Positions 52,748 through 62,888 of a DNA stretch of 64,000 nucleotides are shown here, piece after piece (position 1 is the stretch's first letter; each line of letters begins with the position of its first letter). The notes beneath the pieces were generated by a model. That model had not been told where the DNA came from and did not search any database. It saw nothing but the letters and a program-made list of their open reading frames with translations. Origin of the DNA: Acidimicrobiaceae bacterium (GTDB taxonomy: Bacteria; Actinomycetota; Acidimicrobiia; Acidimicrobiales; RAAP-2); contig PKYK01000019.1 of the NCBI GenBank assembly GCA_003133665.1, positions 1 to 64,000 on the forward strand, read 5' to 3'. A program made the translations under genes and the position numbers.

Positions 52748-52824
52748 TGGTGCGGCTGGAGGGATTCGAACCCCCGACCCTCGGTTCCGAAGACCGATGC
52801 TCTATTCCGCTGAGCTACAGCCGC
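52748..52824 (-). tRNA. tRNA-Arg (anticodon UCG), CCA encoded
   Basis: On the minus strand GCGGCTG/CAGCCGC acceptor, TCGGT/ACCGA anticodon stem around CTTCGGA (anticodon TCG, reads CGA/CGG), GGTTCGAATCC T-arm and discriminator A at 52751; CCA is encoded at 52750-52748. Differs at only two positions from the tRNA-Arg(ACG) at 57395-57468: the anticodon wobble base and one D-loop base. A UCG anticodon is uncommon in bacteria that use TadA-modified ACG. Confidence 0.95.
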
Positions 52825-53592: not shown

Positions 53593-53799
53593 GAACCGTC
53601 GCGCGGAGTTCAGGCTCCGGACCACCCCACCGGCCCCGGTGAATGGTGAGGTATTTACATAAGTCACAGCCCTTACGGCACTTGGCCTGTAGAGGGCCGA
53701 TCTCGGGACTTTCAACTCGATAAATCGAGAGATCCAACTCGTTCGAGGCGAAACCCCCCTGAAGAACCTGTGTTTCAGACAGCTCCTTGGAGGCGTGAC
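53593..53799. other. A/T-richer intergenic region, nothing recognised
   Basis: 207 bases between the ferritin-like gene and the small lipoprotein. Visibly richer in A/T than neighbours (for example around 53641-53670). It contains one short inverted repeat CTCGAT-AA-ATCGAG near 53717-53730. No tRNA remnant or gene seen. It may be a junction of inserted DNA. Confidence 0.35.
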
Positions 53800-54150
53800 T
53801 TACGCTCCTGTTTTCAGTCCCAGAGCGTGGCACACTTTCACCCCGTTATTGAGCGCACGTATCATCGCGGCGGTGTCTTGCGTACGAGCAGCTTTGTCGT
53901 AGGCGCGAACTACGGCCTTGAAAGACGCATCGTCCGTCTTTTGTAGAGCGAGCAAGGTTGATGTTTTTACTGAAATCACCTCGAAACTGCTCGAGCTCGG
54001 TGTCGGTATCGACGAGGCACTGATGAGTTTGCACGCGGTCGCTTCGAGGTGTCGTTGGTTGCTTGGAGGGTTCTGCGTCTCCGCCGTAGAGCCGCACCCG
54101 CCGAGGACTATCGCCGCGACTATGGCTGTAAAAGAAACTCGTAGCCGCAT
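53800..54150 (-). CDS. Small putative lipoprotein
   Basis: A 116-residue protein with a short basic N-terminus, hydrophobic segment FTAIVAAIVLGGCG with a lipobox (Cys about residue 19), then a Ser/Thr-rich stretch and a helical C-terminus (TLLALQKTDDASFKAVVRAYDKAA). ATG 54150 preceded by AAAGGGTG. I recognise no family. It is located in the accessory segment between tRNA-Arg genes. Confidence 0.65.
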   Translation of the reverse strand: MRLRVSFTAIVAAIVLGGCGSTAETQNPPSNQRHLEATACKLISASSIPTPSSSSFEVISVKTSTLLALQKTDDASFKAVVRAYDKAARTQDTAAMIRALNNGVKVCHALGLKTGA

Positions 54151-54221: not shown

Positions 54222-54572
54222 TTATTCAACCTTGGGCAGCAAGTCCGTCCGGTCCTGAACAAGCGGCAAGATGTTCACTCCCAGTCGTAGCGCCCACTCG
54301 AACATCTCGCCCAAGTCGGCCGGCGCCTGGCCACGGAGCTTGCGCTCGAGCCACGCCTCATCTTCATTGACGCCGGCGGCGAGAACGCCCAGCTGTATCC
54401 GGCGAGCCTTCAGCTCTGCTCTCACTGCGAGTGCGACTCGATGCTGATACCAGGCCCAGGCCATCTCACCCTCGCCCCAGCCTTCGACCCGTACCGCCAC
54501 CGCGTCGCTGGAGCGACCGAAGTCCCGGGGATTCTGGACGACCTGAGCGGGGCGAAAACGGGGTTTTCCCAT
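54222..54572 (-). CDS. Small helix-turn-helix (XRE-like) protein, candidate repressor
   Basis: A 116-residue protein. After a basic N-terminus (GKPRFRPAQVVQNPRDFG), residues about 50-105 read VRAELKARRIQLGVLAAGV, EAWLERKLRGQAP and LGEMFEWALRLGVNIL, a layout like XRE-type HTH proteins in which the second part contacts DNA. ATG 54572; the longer frame upstream would run across the palindrome. Divergent from the recombinase-like gene, with a perfect palindrome between them, so autoregulation is a natural guess. HTH assignment is by eye. Confidence 0.6.
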   Translation of the reverse strand: MGKPRFRPAQVVQNPRDFGRSSDAVAVRVEGWGEGEMAWAWYQHRVALAVRAELKARRIQLGVLAAGVNEDEAWLERKLRGQAPADLGEMFEWALRLGVNILPLVQDRTDLLPKVE

Positions 54573-54588
54573 GGCTTTGAGCCTATCA

Positions 54589-54613
54589 GAACTAACGTAT
54601 TTTACGTTAGTTC
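54589..54613. promoter_or_regulatory. Perfect 11-bp-arm palindrome between HTH gene and recombinase-like gene
   Basis: Arms GAACTAACGTA and TACGTTAGTTC separated by TTT, with no mismatch. It lies 17 bases before the HTH start (54572) and 28 bases before the recombinase-like start (54641). Symmetry and position fit an operator for a dimeric repressor; it could alternatively be a recombinase or transposase binding site. Confidence 0.7.
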
Positions 54614-54640
54614 GTTTGAGCTTTTGCGCACGATGTAGGG

Positions 54641-55618
54641 GTGCCAACCAAGCGATCAACAGAGAAAATACCAACGGCGAGTGCGTCAGCGCTTCGCGCC
54701 TGGCACGGTCGTCGTGTCGTGACCAAGCCCCGAGCCCAGTCAGTTGCTCTCATTGAGAGCTACCTCCCTGTGAAGGGAGTCCACGCTCTCGTAAAGCCGC
54801 CGCAGTGGAAGCGTGTCCGTGAACTCGTGAAGTCCGGAGTGATGCCACTCGCGGGTTATCACGAGTCGTCACTTCGTCCGTACTTGAAAGCGATGCTGCT
54901 GCTCGCGATGTGGGCCGATGACCACGGCTACCCGCTCGAACTGAATGTCGTGCTCTCCGAGAACCTCGTCTGGGCGTTCATCAAGCAGCAGCCTTTCGGC
55001 GCGTTCGACTACGAAGCTCATCTCTGGCGACTCGCGGCGGCGCACCACACCGTGTCGGACATCGCGACGACCCGTGGTCAAGTGACGCGGCCGAAGTACC
55101 TCGCGCCGTACTCCGACGACGAACTCACCAAACTCATTAGTTTTGCCCACGACTTGACGAACCAGCACCGCCGCGAAACGCTGCTCACCATCATCGCGCT
55201 TGGTGCCGGTGGTGGCATCTCACGGCACCGCTTGCGCGGCGTCACGGCCAAGTCCGTCCATCGTCACGGGGGCGAGACGTTCATTTCGAGTTTCGATCTC
55301 TGCGCGAAAGTCTCACCGAAGTTCGTCTCACTCCTGCGTGAGGTGGTGATGTTCCAACCCGTCGGGCCGCTGGTCCAAGCGCGCGGCACCAACCTCACGG
55401 CGTACGCCGCCGAGTGGACGGTGCGGCGTCGCGGCGTACCAGCCCTCTCGGGCGACCGCCTGCGCGCCACCTACATCGTGGCGTTGCTCGAGTCCGAAGC
55501 GACGGCGGACGTTCTGCGATGGTCCGGCCTGCGAAAGCTCGAAGGACTTCAGGGTTATCTACCGTTCGTCACCACTCGAACCTTCACGTGTAGCCACCTA
55601 CGAAAGGAACACCGGTGA
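54641..55618 (+). CDS. Tyrosine-recombinase-fold protein lacking key catalytic residues
   Basis: A 325-residue protein. The first half resembles a core-binding domain (SSLRPYLKAMLLLAMWADDHG and FDYEAHLWRLAAAHH). The second half follows the catalytic fold: YSDDELTKLISFAHDLT, RRETLLTIIALGAGGGISRHRLRGV, LSGDRLRATYIVALLESEATADVLRWSGL and a final LQGYLPFV. Where integrases have G-R at the first catalytic Arg this protein has GGGIS, and the HxxR box reads DRLR; the last Arg and a C-terminal Tyr remain. GTG start at 54641. It overlaps the transposase gene (GTGA), so they are made together. Confidence 0.7.
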   Translation: MPTKRSTEKIPTASASALRAWHGRRVVTKPRAQSVALIESYLPVKGVHALVKPPQWKRVRELVKSGVMPLAGYHESSLRPYLKAMLLLAMWADDHGYPLELNVVLSENLVWAFIKQQPFGAFDYEAHLWRLAAAHHTVSDIATTRGQVTRPKYLAPYSDDELTKLISFAHDLTNQHRRETLLTIIALGAGGGISRHRLRGVTAKSVHRHGGETFISSFDLCAKVSPKFVSLLREVVMFQPVGPLVQARGTNLTAYAAEWTVRRRGVPALSGDRLRATYIVALLESEATADVLRWSGLRKLEGLQGYLPFVTTRTFTCSHLRKEHR

Positions 55619-57183
55619 TAGTCAGCCAAAGGGAACTGAAGGAACTCATCAGCGAGGCCGAGCGACTCCTCGATGAGAACGGCACCATTGCGTTCATCGA
55701 ACAGTGCATCAGCGCAGCGGCGGTGAAGAGCGGCCGACCCCGCGAACTGTCGGTGCGCGCTCTGATGGTCGCGCTCCAGGTGCAGGTCTTCGACGGTCGC
55801 TTTCTGCTCACGACCGTGCCGAGATTCCTCAACAACCTTGACCCCGCCACCAGGCGTCGTCTCGGCATCACGCGTAAGAACGGCGTGACTCTCCGCCAGG
55901 TGCAGCACCTTTTCGAGCGCATCGAGAAGACCAACTACGACCGCACCCGCACTGACGACGCGCGTTTTGACAACCTCGACGTACTACTCAACAAGGTGGG
56001 GACGGCGGGCGGGCACGCCGACGCCAACCTCACGACTTCAATAGCCATCGACAGCTCGGACATACCGAGTTGGGGGAAGGACTGCTACCGGATGGTCTTC
56101 GACGCCGAGGGGAAATACGTCGGCAACGAGAAACGCGCGAGTGACCCTGACGCGCACTGGCGCACCAAAGGAAAGAAGGGCGAAAAGAAGTCGTTCTTCG
56201 GCTACGACCTCACCGCCGCGGTCACCGTGCAAGAAGAAGGAGGGCCGGAGGTGCCGCGAGCCATCAAGTCCATTCGGTTTCGACCCGCCACCTACAAAAC
56301 GACGGCGATGGCCTTAGCCTGCGCCACCGACGTGGCCGCGTCACAGGGGACATTGGGCGATGTCTTGGTGGACCGCGAGTACACGCAGTCGAACCACGGG
56401 CGCGACTTCATTCTCGAAGTTCGCAAACTCCACGGCGAGCCTGTCTTCGGTCTGAAGCTGAACCAGGTCGGTGTCTCGGGACACGTGCGCGGCGCGGTCA
56501 TCATCGACGGTCAGCCGTTCTCACCATCGCTGCCACAGAGCCTGCGGATTATTCATCGTCCGCTGCCCGCGCAAACTTACGCACTCAACCCCGACGCAGT
56601 GAAGAAGTACGAAGACCAGATAGCGGCGCGCTCCATCTACGCACTGGTTCTTCATGGTTCACGCCGGTTGTCGGACGGTTCGCTCGTGCACACCTACCAG
56701 TGTCCCGCCGCCGCCGGCAAGCTCACCTGTCCACTCGTCGCCTCATCGCAGTCGTTGGCACTCGGCACAATGCCAGCCGCCAACCCTCCGCAGGTGGCGC
56801 CGAAGAACTCGGTGTGCGACGCCCAGTTCCGCACGTTCACCGCGGCCGAGCTCCCACTCGCGCAGCGTCATCTTCACGGCTCGACGGCATGGCGCAAGTC
56901 CTACGCACGACGCAACGAGGTCGAGCGCCTGTTCTCAAACACGAAGGACCAGGCGTCGGAAAACCTTCGACGTGGTTCCATTCGCGTACGCGGCATCGTG
57001 AAGATGGGTCTCCTTGTCGCCCTCTCGCTCGCCAGCACGAACCGGCGACTGGCCAAGAGCTACGAACGGCGTCAGCCCAAGCCGCCTAAGCGTGGCCGGG
57101 GTCGTCCGCGTAAGCACCCAGTCATCGTGATGGCTGAAGCCATCGTCGCTACCGACACGACGCGCACGCCCCTTCGCATCTGA
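55615..57183 (+). CDS. DDE-type transposase (IS1182/IS4-like)
   Basis: A 522-residue transposase. N-terminal helical region with VQHLFERIEK, then the first Asp in TSIAIDSSDIPSW, the middle FFGYDLTAAVTVQEEGG, the second Asp in LGDVLVDREYTQSN, and the Glu region WRKSYARRNEVERLFSNTKDQASENLRRG. The C-terminus is very basic with an AT-hook-like KRGRGRPRKHP. GTG start at 55615 inside the stop of the preceding gene. The reading frame looks intact. No flanking terminal inverted repeats or target duplications were found by eye, so element ends are unknown. Confidence 0.88.
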   Translation: MIVSQRELKELISEAERLLDENGTIAFIEQCISAAAVKSGRPRELSVRALMVALQVQVFDGRFLLTTVPRFLNNLDPATRRRLGITRKNGVTLRQVQHLFERIEKTNYDRTRTDDARFDNLDVLLNKVGTAGGHADANLTTSIAIDSSDIPSWGKDCYRMVFDAEGKYVGNEKRASDPDAHWRTKGKKGEKKSFFGYDLTAAVTVQEEGGPEVPRAIKSIRFRPATYKTTAMALACATDVAASQGTLGDVLVDREYTQSNHGRDFILEVRKLHGEPVFGLKLNQVGVSGHVRGAVIIDGQPFSPSLPQSLRIIHRPLPAQTYALNPDAVKKYEDQIAARSIYALVLHGSRRLSDGSLVHTYQCPAAAGKLTCPLVASSQSLALGTMPAANPPQVAPKNSVCDAQFRTFTAAELPLAQRHLHGSTAWRKSYARRNEVERLFSNTKDQASENLRRGSIRVRGIVKMGLLVALSLASTNRRLAKSYERRQPKPPKRGRGRPRKHPVIVMAEAIVATDTTRTPLRI

Positions 57184-57238: not shown

Positions 57239-57394
57239 TTCTGCATTTCCGATGCCGCCCTCACGGGTTGCTGTTTTTATTCCAAGGCACATTTCGGGGC
57301 CGATCGATGGCGCATTTCCAGCATCGTCAGTTGAGACCCGCGTTTTCCGGTACTTACGTAGATCCAAACGCCCACTTATGGATAATCCTCTGGG
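57239..57394. other. Intergenic segment next to tRNA-Arg(ACG), nothing recognised
   Basis: About 155 bases between the transposase hairpins and the 3' end of the tRNA. Mixed composition with A/T-rich stretches. It could hold the element's end or an old attachment site, but no repeat of the tRNA 3' end is present in it. Confidence 0.3.
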
Positions 57395-57468
57395 TGCGGC
57401 TGGAGGGATTCGAACCCCCGACCCTCGGTTCCGTAGACCGATGCTCTAATCCGCTGAGCTACAGCCGC
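57395..57468 (-). tRNA. tRNA-Arg (anticodon ACG)
   Basis: On the minus strand, acceptor GCGGCTG/CAGCCGC, anticodon stem TCGGT/ACCGA around CTACGGA (anticodon ACG, to be modified to ICG by TadA), T-arm GGTTCGAATCC, discriminator A at 57395. The following bases are CCC, so CCA is not encoded, unlike its near-twin at 52748-52824. Confidence 0.97.
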
Positions 57469-57538
57469 ATTGTTGCTGGCCTACCATCCTAGCCGACCCC
57501 TCTTCGACGGTGCTCCGCTCAGTTACTACCATGCGTTG

Positions 57539-59491: not shown

Positions 59492-60646
59492 TTAGGACCG
59501 ACGCACTCCGCGGCGTCGCAGCCGCCGGTCGCGCCACCAAGGGTGCAGTCGCACGGTCATCACGGGGCGCGAACCGGTGACCACGAGCGCGGTGCCGGCC
59601 GCTCGCTGGCGGAGGGGCACCATCCGAGCATCACCCTTGCCCTGGACGAGTTCGGGCAGGTAGGTTCCGACGGTCGGATCGGCCAGACCCCCCATCACCA
59701 CCCGCGTCGTGTGGTTATTGACAATCGTGGCCGCCCGTGGACCCCACCGAGCCACCAGCTGTGCGAAATCCTGAATGACGGTGACCAGGGTCACGTCCAG
59801 ACCACTGACCGTGGCCGCCAGTTGGTCGAGTTCATCGAGCGGCGCCACCGTGGCCGCCTCATCGAGAACGAGGAGCAATCGGCGTTGACGTCCTTGGTCA
59901 ACCAGGCGCTGCTGCTCCTCGAGCACCATCCGCAGGGCCCCACGGAAGAGGGGCTCGTAGTGCTGCTGTTCACCGCGCGGACTGCACAGGTAGAGCGTGT
60001 TGGCCCCCTCGACGACCGAGCGAACGCGCGCGAGGGGCTGGCGGAACCGCCACGGCAGAAGCATCGTCTCCGCCGTGGTGACAACGCCGTCCAGTGTCTT
60101 GGGCTCGTGCTCGAGGAACGTCCCCAAGAGTTCGCGCGCGTCACCCCTCGTCGACAACGCCAACCACGATGAGAAGTCCCGCCCTTCGACCACTGCGGCG
60201 ACGTCGAAGATGGAAAGTGAACGCTCACGAGCGGTCACGAGAAGTGAGGCCACGAGTTTGGCCGCGAGGGAGTTCCAGAAATGCGTGTCGCCGTGTCCCG
60301 GGGTCGCGCTCGTGAGATCGCGCGCCACACGAAGAGCGTGACGCAGGGTGCGCACCCCCTCGAGCGGGTCCCACGTCAAGCCGTCATCATTGCCGGGCTC
60401 GAGAATCTGCACATCACCGAGCGACGCCCGCCACCGACGGGTCGTCTCCACCACGTCGCGCTTGACACTCGTCACCACGATCGCATCAGTCCAGTTCAGG
60501 AGTGACGGAACGACGAGCGACGCGGTCTTGCCCACCTGCGTCGGTCCGACGATCAGCAGTGAACTTCGGGGCGCGAGTACGACGCGAGCCCCGCATGGAA
60601 CACCGCTCCACGTACGTCGACCCAGCAGCGGGCGGTCACTGCGCAC
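59492..60646 (-). CDS. VirD4/TraG-like coupling ATPase
   Basis: A 384-residue soluble P-loop ATPase. Walker A SLLIVGPTQVGKTASLVVPSLL, Walker B LLLVLDEAATVAPL, and VTVIQDFAQLVARWG and HTTRVVMGGLADPTVG are typical of the VirD4/TraG family, which brings substrates to a type IV secretion channel. The N-terminal membrane segments of classical VirD4 are missing. GTG start at 60646, two bases after the VirB4-like stop. Last gene of the apparent four-gene operon. Confidence 0.85.
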   Translation of the reverse strand: MRSDRPLLGRRTWSGVPCGARVVLAPRSSLLIVGPTQVGKTASLVVPSLLNWTDAIVVTSVKRDVVETTRRWRASLGDVQILEPGNDDGLTWDPLEGVRTLRHALRVARDLTSATPGHGDTHFWNSLAAKLVASLLVTARERSLSIFDVAAVVEGRDFSSWLALSTRGDARELLGTFLEHEPKTLDGVVTTAETMLLPWRFRQPLARVRSVVEGANTLYLCSPRGEQQHYEPLFRGALRMVLEEQQRLVDQGRQRRLLLVLDEAATVAPLDELDQLAATVSGLDVTLVTVIQDFAQLVARWGPRAATIVNNHTTRVVMGGLADPTVGTYLPELVQGKGDARMVPLRQRAAGTALVVTGSRPVMTVRLHPWWRDRRLRRRGVRRS

Positions 60647-60648
60647 GA

Positions 60649-61824
60649 CTATGAGCTGGGGATGCGCATCGCCGCATCGGTGTCGATGAACTGGACATCA
60701 CGTTCGTCGGGCGTGATCCGCACCACCGAGCGATGGGCGCCGTAGCGCACCAGCGCACTGCCCTTTGGCAACGCGGTCAAGTAGCGCTCTTCACGGGGAT
60801 GCAGGGCCAGTGCGAGCGCCATCTCCCGGGCTTCGTCCGGTGGCTGGCGGAAGAGCCAGGAAGTCTCGCATTCACGCAAGAGCCCCTGCGCCCGCTCCCG
60901 CTGGACGCTGCCGGCGTTGCCGGCCGCCGCAACGTCGGTCCAGCGGTGCAGCACCAGCACGTGACTCAGGCCTCGCGAGCGGGCGAGTTTCCACGAACCC
61001 TGCAACCAGCGAAGGGCGTGCGGGTCCGAGAGCAGCGCCCACGCCTCGTCGAGGACCAGGTACCCCAACTCCCTTCCCTGGGCGACCACCTGCTGCGCCG
61101 CAGCGACCGCACTCAGCGCCGCGACCGAAAGCGAGCTCGCCGACCACTGCGCGGACAGGTCCAAGACGATCAATGATCCTTCAAAGACGAGCGGTTCGCC
61201 TTCGCCGTCGAAGAGCCCGGCGAGGTCACCATGGACGAATCGGTACAGCGTCAGGGCCAGGCTGCGCTGCGTCGAGGGCTGCTCCAGCGCGAGATGACGG
61301 CTCAACAGCCCGAGGAGCGAGTACAGCACCCGTGACGGTCGCGGCGAGGGGAGCTGTTGCCACACCTCGTCAATCGCGAAGTGCTGCTCGTTCGAGAGAG
61401 TTGAACCCTGGGCACTCGCCACCAATGCTCGCAATAGCTCTCGGCTTTCGCGATCCCCTTGGGGGAAGGGGTTGCACCACCCATCACGTCCCAGCGTGAT
61501 GGCCGCCACTCCGTACGACCGCGCCAGTTCGCCGTACTCCCCCTTGGGATCGATCACCACTGCTCGTCGGCCCCGCACCAAGGCCCGATCGAGCAGCATC
61601 TTGACAATCGTGCTCTTGCCGGCCCCGATCGATCCCGCCACGATCATGTTCGGGTTTGAGACCAGTCCCGCGGCGTAGGCGTCGAATGGATCGAGGACAA
61701 AGGGGCCGCCCCGAAGCGCCGAGCCGAGCGGACGGCCTTCGAGCCCCGTTCCCGCGTCGTGGCTGGGAAGGCGCAGACTGAAGAGGTCGCTTGAGGTTGC
61801 CCAGTGGGTCCACGGTCGAGTCAC
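60649..61824 (-). CDS. VirB4/TraC-like ATPase (reduced)
   Basis: A 391-residue ATPase. Walker A MIVAGSIGAGKSTIVKMLLDRAL, VVIDPKGEYGELA, Walker B LGYLVLDEAWALLSD and LHRWTDVAAAG match the C-terminal motor domain of VirB4-type proteins; the usual large N-terminal domain is absent, and may be supplied by the SCO6880-like protein. I chose the GTG at 61824 since it overlaps the previous TGA as GTGA; a GTG at 61860 is possible. Confidence 0.85.
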   Translation of the reverse strand: MTRPWTHWATSSDLFSLRLPSHDAGTGLEGRPLGSALRGGPFVLDPFDAYAAGLVSNPNMIVAGSIGAGKSTIVKMLLDRALVRGRRAVVIDPKGEYGELARSYGVAAITLGRDGWCNPFPQGDRESRELLRALVASAQGSTLSNEQHFAIDEVWQQLPSPRPSRVLYSLLGLLSRHLALEQPSTQRSLALTLYRFVHGDLAGLFDGEGEPLVFEGSLIVLDLSAQWSASSLSVAALSAVAAAQQVVAQGRELGYLVLDEAWALLSDPHALRWLQGSWKLARSRGLSHVLVLHRWTDVAAAGNAGSVQRERAQGLLRECETSWLFRQPPDEAREMALALALHPREERYLTALPKGSALVRYGAHRSVVRITPDERDVQFIDTDAAMRIPSS

Positions 61825-62888
61825 CAGCCCGGTCCGCCGGGCATCTGGTGGCAGTACCACGCGGATTGACGACCGACCCCCCGCTCACAACGCAGACCCG
61901 ACTCGTGCGCGGCGCGCAGCACTTCATCCACTCGTGGCTGCAGCTCGGCGCGCGACGGTGCCCGCACCGTGGCGAACACCGCCACTCGCAGCAGCGATCG
62001 GCCGCTGGCGACCAACGCCTCACGTTGGCCCAGACGCTCCAGGGAACGATTCACCAGCGCGGTCCGACGAAACCCAGCGGCGAGCGAAGTGGCGCCATCG
62101 CTTCGATGACGGTGCACGGCTCGCTCCGTGACGCGCCGGGCCCGTGATCCGGCGATGACGTCGAGATGCAGGGAGACGGTGATTTCGCTGGTGGCGTGTT
62201 GCAGTTTCTCCAGCATCGCCTGGCCACTCGACACGGCCGTGAAGTCCCGGATCCGAAGAACGCGAACGGGCCCGCTGGGGGTTCGCACGTAGTTCCAACG
62301 TTCGAGCAGCCACTTCGGCCGACCGGCGGCCGTGCCGACGACGTCGAAGACGAGCCCGTTGTTAGCCAGCCACCCGTCGGGAGGCACGATGGCGTCGGGC
62401 AGCGACAGCAGGGTCCGGGCGCCGCCACCCGACGACCGGACATGAAGCGACACGTGGCGCGACGACTCGCTCGTGGCCAGGCCATCGGCGAACGACGCCA
62501 ATCCGTGGGCAATCTGAACGTCACCACCGGAAAGGTCGAGTCGCCCCCGATGGAGAAGTTCGAATCCCTGGACTACCGCCCGAGCGCGCGCGGAGAGAAT
62601 CAGTGACTCGCCCTGGCGATCGATGGCGACAGTGGTCCACCGTGATCGAGAGCAGAACTGAAGTCCGACCATCAGAAACGCACCGAGCGTCAGGCCGTCG
62701 TAGAACGGCGCAGCGCACGCCAACAGCGCTCCGCCGACGATCACTTCGAGAAGCGAACCGTGGACGCGAAACAACCAGTCGCCGACCAGGCCGATGCCGA
62801 CGATCACCAACACGATTTGATGACGGCGCACTCCAATCCAGCGAGAGTCGGCGTCGGTATCGCCCAGTCCCAGCATTTCATTCATCAA
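61821..62888 (-). CDS. SCO6880/PrgI-like membrane protein of the secretion locus
   Basis: A 355-residue protein with two membrane segments near the N-terminus (VLVIVGIGLVGDWLF and VIVGGALLACAAPFY) and a soluble remainder. The layout, short segments then a VirB4-N-like domain (LTLGAFLMVGLQF, then GLASFADGLATSESSRHVSLHV), resembles the actinobacterial SCO6880 family found next to VirB4. Overlaps the VirB6-like gene by 11 bases and the VirB4-like gene by four. Confidence 0.7.
   Translation of the reverse strand: MMNEMLGLGDTDADSRWIGVRRHQIVLVIVGIGLVGDWLFRVHGSLLEVIVGGALLACAAPFYDGLTLGAFLMVGLQFCSRSRWTTVAIDRQGESLILSARARAVVQGFELLHRGRLDLSGGDVQIAHGLASFADGLATSESSRHVSLHVRSSGGGARTLLSLPDAIVPPDGWLANNGLVFDVVGTAAGRPKWLLERWNYVRTPSGPVRVLRIRDFTAVSSGQAMLEKLQHATSEITVSLHLDVIAGSRARRVTERAVHRHRSDGATSLAAGFRRTALVNRSLERLGQREALVASGRSLLRVAVFATVRAPSRAELQPRVDEVLRAAHESGLRCERGVGRQSAWYCHQMPGGPGW

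Follow-up and report, generated by a model that had tools for sequence, protein, structure and literature searches.

The window analysed here, 64,000 nucleotides from an Acidimicrobiaceae bacterium (contig PKYK01000019.1), carries a small transposon in which a gene for a degenerate tyrosine-recombinase-like protein, called REC below, directly precedes a gene for a transposase of the DDE type (TNP). Elements of this kind almost certainly home to the ends of transfer RNA (tRNA) genes. We consider it likely that they are DDE transposons directed to the 3' ends of tRNA and transfer-messenger RNA (tmRNA) genes, with REC as the reader of the target. The original prediction for this locus had suggested that an inactive recombinase is kept beside the transposase as its partner or targeting factor. 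That idea is supported by the pairing of the two genes and by the insertions at tRNA ends; the reading by REC itself we infer. Single loci (L) and genomes (G) are numbered where copies have to be told apart.

The main evidence is position. A tRNA or tmRNA gene lies 79-331 bp downstream of 61 of the 97 transposase 3' ends, and all 61 genes are antiparallel to the transposase. In the set of 198 related genomes, 52 of 83 ends have such a gene within 350 bp downstream (52/52 antiparallel), and where at least 350 bp of contig follow the transposase the count is 47 of 70. The distance is 195-216 bp in 32 of the relatives' 52 tRNA-adjacent ends. A sample from across the phylum gave 9 of 14 ends at a tRNA or tmRNA gene, every one antiparallel. 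In the window copy the transposase gene stops 207 bp short of tRNA-Arg(acg), whose 3' end faces it. Junctions fall at the tRNA CCA or a few bases off. The targets comprise 17 kinds of tRNA (Ser-gga, Ser-tga, Ile-gat, Met-cat, Leu-cag, Leu-gag, Leu-taa, Val-tac, Val-gac, Arg-acg, Arg-tct, Glu-ctc, Ala-cgc, Ala-tgc, Tyr-gta, Pro-ggg and Gly-ccc) plus tmRNA. As a control, 30 IS256-type loci from 100 relatives, 19 of which include the gene 3' end and 350 bp beyond, yielded a single antiparallel tRNA within 350 bp (L204, 317 bp).

The 36 ends without such a gene fall into several groups. Seven have less than 250 bp of contig left; one of these, L066, abuts what by eye is a cut tRNA-Ile. Four (L072, L075, L143 and L144) abut an antiparallel tRNA 3' fragment of 40-58 nucleotides. 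These fragments suggest that the 3' part of a tRNA gene may suffice as target, unless the tRNA was broken after insertion. Eleven pass through a short TGG-type stretch into the apparent left end of another copy, called by a score of at least 13 at the junction (L081, L082, L088, L136, L146, L177) or by eye alone (L058, L068, L133, L150, L161). The other 14 are unexplained. L068 (8715-10773) and L133 also hold another type of element, with a left end like GGGGGATT..GACAAAG, which seems to share this type of tRNA site; in L068 its right end has TTTGTCCGAA boxes.

The choice of target appears to be partly inherited and often switched. On a tree built by a quick method, with long branches and unsure single placements, a minimum of 23 changes of target amino acid is needed, compared with 31-40 in 200 label shuffles, which argues for this mixture. 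The count used 52 of 66 labelled rows (at least 150 aa), labelled by amino acid.

REC belongs with the tyrosine recombinases, a relationship visible by profile alone. The window protein had no match in Pfam, NCBIfam or PHROG, and the Phage_integrase model matched 2 of 30 REC members. A profile of the 30 members matched PDB 4a8e, a XerC-like recombinase (E=1.2e-5), and weakly XerD (0.095). Aligned by hhalign with four tyrosine recombinases of the same genome, REC reached a probability of 94.5 (E=7.5e-8) in local mode and 96.6 (E=5.7e-10) in global mode. Its catalytic positions were mapped by alignment to Xer-type recombinases, covering the two arginines (R1 and R2), the His of the HxxR motif, the later His/Trp and the Tyr. 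In the window REC, R1 is replaced by S194, HxxR reads D272-R-L-R275, the His/Trp position is L297 and the Tyr is present as Y306. The loss of the first Arg and the DRLR motif, both of which the original prediction had read by eye, are thus borne out. Its term 'disabled' needs to be put more precisely. R1, the HxxR His and the later His/Trp are lost, while R2 and Y306 are still there; the term is therefore justified by R1 and the His positions and not by the Tyr. Across the family the same positions are retained very unequally: R1 in 3/30, the HxxR His in 0/30, R2 in 30/30, His/Trp in 0/30 and Tyr in 11/30. A complete R-K-H-R-H/W-Y set was found in none of the 30 aligned REC relatives. The decay is graded, and L074, L095 and L096 retain R1, R2 and the Tyr.

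The pairing with the transposase is close to constant. Transposases found mostly alone had been named beforehand as the observation that would speak against a partnership; we found REC directly upstream or fused in 39 of 40 full-length transposases. This count covers transposases that begin within the first 15% of the profile, extend into its last 15% and have at least 900 bp upstream, and it includes near-identical copies. In 32 of 37 pairs the transposase frame offers a start codon that would overlap the stop of REC by 4 bases. The window pair has this overlap at a GTGA (55615-55618), as had been predicted. L264 holds REC and transposase in a single open frame of 797 residues; as its genome is a draft, a sequencing indel is possible. 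Some members carry REC in two genes or encode a ~600-residue protein in which the N-terminal region of REC recurs as the first part. Of the 198 related genomes (the window's own included), 24 gave a match to REC and 56 to the transposase, and the transposase profile matched in 27 of 396 genomes sampled over the phylum, with 3 candidates scored in each. The window genome has one REC and one transposase; a different contig may hold a small piece of a transposase (E=3.7e-4). The pair is also filed as hypothetical proteins on plasmid pSCL3 of Streptomyces clavuligerus and on a Rhodococcus opacus plasmid. A search of viral contigs found no further REC/transposase relatives.

The transposase has D146, D253 and E437, which are invariant in 28 aligned sequences and which, by their motifs, we take to be the DDE triad. 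Its similarity to DDE_Tnp_1_6, DDE_Tnp_1 and IS1182 stays under the cut-offs in each case. The likeness to IS1182 (NCBIfam NF033551) is local and in the window protein concerns the C-terminal DDE region; 21 of 28 members match at E<=0.01. The window transposase scores 26.5 bits against a curated cut-off of 270, and IS1182 membership was rejected. Two relatives show altered transposase genes. In the window's closest relative (G040), an IS256-type transposase gene (L061, 9569-10777) follows directly after a truncated transposase. In L098 (4910-6316), the C-terminal part of a transposase is apparently joined, by eye, to a HEPN-like segment and adjoins tRNA-Leu(taa); this gene looks as if it was made by recombination.

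The three open reading frames (ORFs) of the original prediction, encoding a helix-turn-helix (HTH) protein, REC and the transposase, were all found where it had placed them. The element itself extends beyond that locus (54222-57183), from ~53648 to ~57390, and on the right it runs up to the 3' end of tRNA-Arg. Its parts, with four ORFs of at least 70 aa by greedy pick, are as follows.

53644..53647, no strand: left-hand TGGT(G) resembling a target duplication, an imperfect match to the TGGGTG of the right junction and weaker than in other copies
53648..53664, plus strand: left terminal inverted repeat GAGGTATTTACATAAGT, 13/18 match to the right end
53800..54150, minus strand: small cargo ORF of 116 aa with a lipoprotein-like start by eye, no Pfam or PADLOC match
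54222..54572, minus strand: divergent HTH-like protein of 116 aa, probable repressor, from a weak PHROG match
54590..54612, no strand: palindrome AACTAACGTATTTTACGTTAGTT between the divergent genes, likely operator, from comparison with G040
54641..55618, plus strand: REC, degenerate tyrosine-recombinase-like protein of 325 aa, proposed target reader, from profile and alignment
55615..57183, plus strand: TNP, DDE transposase of 522 aa with D146/D253/E437, triad invariant in 28 aligned sequences
57352..57360, plus strand: right-end box 1 (ACTTACGTA), from the two-box pattern of right ends
57374..57390, minus strand: right terminal inverted repeat including box 2 (ACTTATGGA), from comparison of ends
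57391..57469, minus strand: target tRNA-Arg(acg), 3' end toward the element (ARAGORN; Rfam tRNA at 57395-57468)

The left end was placed at ~53648 because two lines of evidence agree. The copy in G040, which belongs to the window's genus and is 81% identical, begins to resemble the window copy at the same motif, GTGAGG..TACATAAGTCACA, and the inverted repeat lies there; with 13/18 matches this repeat equals the shuffled maximum and alone is not significant. The tRNA-Arg(tcg) at 52748 was considered as the left end and rejected, since the G040 comparison and the repeat give ~53648. At the right junction, the tRNA-Arg end in the window appears to carry one extra G; the relatives' matches begin at query 9-10.

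Right ends share a pair of direct boxes of the ACTTTCGTnA type; the second stops a few bases before the tRNA CCA. Paired boxes (10 bases each, 18-26 apart, at least 8/10 matching) occur in 49 of 61 right ends and in 3% of shuffles. Inverted repeats of 15-17/18, above the maximum of 8 shuffles, join the two ends in 8 of 28 copies (L045, L069, L071, L074, L078, L086, L095, L150), and elements with supported ends measure ~2.3 to 9.6 kb. Duplications of ~5 bp that overlap the tRNA end were found in L069 (GTGGT), L086 (ATGGC) and L095 (TTGGTG). L066 has a TTGGT duplication whose underlying repeat did not exceed controls. In none of the seven copies examined with a located left end (L045, L069, L071, L074, L078, L086, L095) does the tRNA recur on the left side of the element. 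A search for tRNA-sized repeats, with 20 loci queried by the whole tRNA, several of them short of a left end, found the window tRNA-Arg at 52748 as its sole match; for L068 the query was a stretch other than tRNA, and for L066 it was the cut tRNA.

Elements also stack at one tRNA, since the right end of another copy lies directly outside L071, L078 and L086 and outside the inner left end of L066. Matches of 46-56 bases to the L071 flank in four genomes (G019, G039, G016, G054) were considered as empty sites and rejected, as they lie ~130 bp from a tRNA-Ser beside a two-box right end. They are relics of right ends of the family, and what lies left of L071 is in turn the right end of another copy. 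L238, L239, L240 and L243 hold more such relics, at tRNA-Ser genes (tga, cga, gga).

Some copies carry what, by their profile matches, would be phage-defence cargo. The scan covered ten ORFs, part of those listed (Pfam, PADLOC). L071 encodes AbiD, an EcoRI-type methylase and a GmrSD/HNH restriction enzyme, and L069 a PDC-M32A candidate defence protein with a treble-clef protein. L078 carries an SLFN_AlbA/RecG-like protein, and L086 a cation efflux protein with an ArsR-type regulator.

The HTH gene is less constant than the original prediction of a trio implied: REC and transposase are a nearly constant pair, whereas HTH homologues were found in five loci (L061, L063, L070, L072, L172) of 64 searched, and some of the 64 may stop short upstream. 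The HTH is thus, on this comparison of loci, a lineage-specific, optional part and not a constant partner. Its longest frame on the minus strand is 54222-54674, and an ATG at 54572, the likely start, gives 116 aa. A match to a PHROG transcriptional repressor is weak (E=0.0092), and the protein probably acts as a repressor. The palindrome reads AACTGACGTATTTTACGTCAGTT in G040, with matching changes in both arms. On pSCL3 the pair is adjoined by a divergent 'transcriptional regulator', an arrangement like that of the window HTH; a profile search gave no match between the two proteins. A compact copy, L074, has a small divergent HTH protein, IS630-like by eye, at the same place (reverse complement, 273-560).

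The DNA itself shows the element, the gene that partners it, the placement at tRNA genes and, for part of the copies, the ends. The mechanism that we propose goes beyond this, above all in the reading by REC, its contact with the transposase, the box-binding protein and the role of the repressor. The transposase would cut and join the DNA, and would probably bind the paired end boxes. REC, having lost its chemistry and kept the fold and R2, would bind the 3' part of the tRNA gene as tyrosine integrases do. By keeping the transposase at that place it would direct the joining of the right end to the CCA, with a duplication of ~5 bp and with the tRNA gene left intact. Coupled translation (GTGA/ATGA) would keep the two proteins in step, and the divergent HTH, where present, would act at the palindrome to repress the operon.

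The proteins that usually read tRNA genes are tyrosine recombinases, and those that target tRNA genes act on the 3' part. We favour REC as the reader because it derives from this class, keeps R2, is coupled and almost constantly paired with the transposase, and can share one frame with it. The four tRNA 3' fragments fit this reading, since the 3' part is where tyrosine integrases act. It is possible, if rather unlikely, that the transposase itself recognises the tRNA end and that REC is an end-binding or architectural subunit. The two right-end boxes could seat a second DNA-binding protein, the 39/40 pairing would fit any essential subunit, and L256 (G179) has a full-length transposase 227 bp from tRNA-Leu(cag) with no detectable REC in the 20 kb examined. 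Set against this are the habit of tyrosine recombinases just mentioned and the nearest precedent, TnsF, which is a target selector (excerpts of PMC10293859).

Two further explanations fare much worse. Were REC a working recombinase that integrates or resolves the element, with the DDE protein as an accessory, the Tyr in 11 members (the window's included) and R1 in L074, L095 and L096 would be accounted for. The HxxR His and the His/Trp are gone from every member, the DDE triad is invariant, and the seven located left ends lack the second tRNA copy that integrases leave; we regard a working REC as very improbable. Finally, tRNA genes are general hot spots for insertion, and another element type apparently shares the tRNA-Ile site in L068, so the elements might gather there merely because insertion is tolerated. 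The single orientation in 61 of 61 cases, the CCA junctions, the narrow distances in 32 of 52 and the one hit in 30 of the IS256 control leave this explanation scarcely credible. Homing to tRNA ends, with REC as the probable reader, is the account that we retain.

Several observations weigh against that account. Of the 97 ends, 14 are unexplained and seven have less than 250 bp of contig, and related copies are not all independent insertions. Scores of 13-15 in the tandem scan also occur at unrelated places (e.g. L139, L140, L145, L174, L100), and the tandem calls therefore depend on position too. Neither of the two plasmid copies has a tRNA next to it. Elements that are almost identical occupy different tRNAs (L065 at Met; L066 and L067 at Ile), and any reading of tRNA by REC must therefore use a shared feature. 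L256 implies that REC is unnecessary for staying at a tRNA, and it may be unnecessary for arriving there too. A significant left repeat is absent in 20 of 28 copies, the window's among them, some of whose left ends may lie outside the sequence. Left-flank searches for empty sites of L095 and L071 gave short or partial matches and none that was empty. At the tRNA-Arg/M20-peptidase flank, the right side is conserved in 29 relatives and the DNA on the left matches none of them save for the tRNA. A structure prediction of REC from two sequences reached a predicted local distance difference test (pLDDT) score of 38 and was not used.

Around the element, the two tRNA-Arg genes at 52748-52824 (tcg) and 57391-57469 (acg), both called by ARAGORN, are 97% identical, 4.6 kb apart and on the same strand. 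Several genomes of the window's genus have extra full or partial (43-45 nucleotides) tRNA-Arg copies on the same contig, and the tRNA-Arg locus looks as if it were a busy integration site. Further downstream, at 59492-61860, two minus-strand ORFs resemble by eye conjugation-type ATPases (TraG/VirD4-like and VirB4-like).

Titles and abstract openings of the open-access literature, with most subscription papers outside this scope, gave no account of the pairing or of the family. The elements are possibly a family of their own. We lean, by a small degree, toward an undescribed, phylum-wide and compact DDE family in which a dead recombinase, as sole selector and without the Tn7 ATPase, reads a feature common to the 3' parts of tRNA and tmRNA genes, with target switching, tandem stacking and phage-defence cargo. 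If so, two proteins suffice for DDE insertion at a safe, conserved site, a simpler arrangement than Tn7 or the CRISPR-associated transposons (CAST). It would also show a recombinase turned from an enzyme into an address reader, and it would explain part of the build-up of islands, defence genes included, at the tRNA genes of these bacteria. No match to TnsA, TnsB, TnsC or TniQ was found among the four ORFs of the window element (REC, TNP and HTH in Pfam and NCBIfam; cargo in Pfam and PADLOC).

Known systems share single traits with this one. The closest in the excerpts of PMC10293859 is TnsF of the Tn7-like Tn6022, an inactivated tyrosine recombinase domain that is the demonstrated target selector of a DDE transposon; both cases place a dead tyrosine recombinase beside DDE transposition. 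According to the same excerpts, TnsF contacts TniQ in a Tn7-type machinery and targets comM, whereas REC is coupled to a single DDE transposase found at tRNA and tmRNA 3' ends. Of the hallmarks of TnsF, a comM target and a zinc-finger N-terminal region, the target differs here, being a tRNA gene. Tsy likewise has a target selector of the tyrosine-recombinase type and an element with an HTH gene; as excerpted, it differs in that the activity of both its recombinases is essential and that it comprises YRec, HTH, TnsF and a GIY-YIG nuclease, without a DDE transposase (PMC10293859). CAST I-D, through TnsD, also directs DDE transposition toward a tRNA gene. In the portion of PMC10293859 that covers it, it inserts ~30-33 nucleotides past the end of tRNA-Leu with TnsAB, TnsC and TnsD, whereas here the junction lies at the CCA. 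The Dada transposons of fish, likened by description alone from part of PMC8869645, are DNA transposons that insert in tRNA or small nuclear RNA genes; they are eukaryotic and enter the genes themselves, whereas the elements described here join at the tRNA 3' end and would leave the gene whole.

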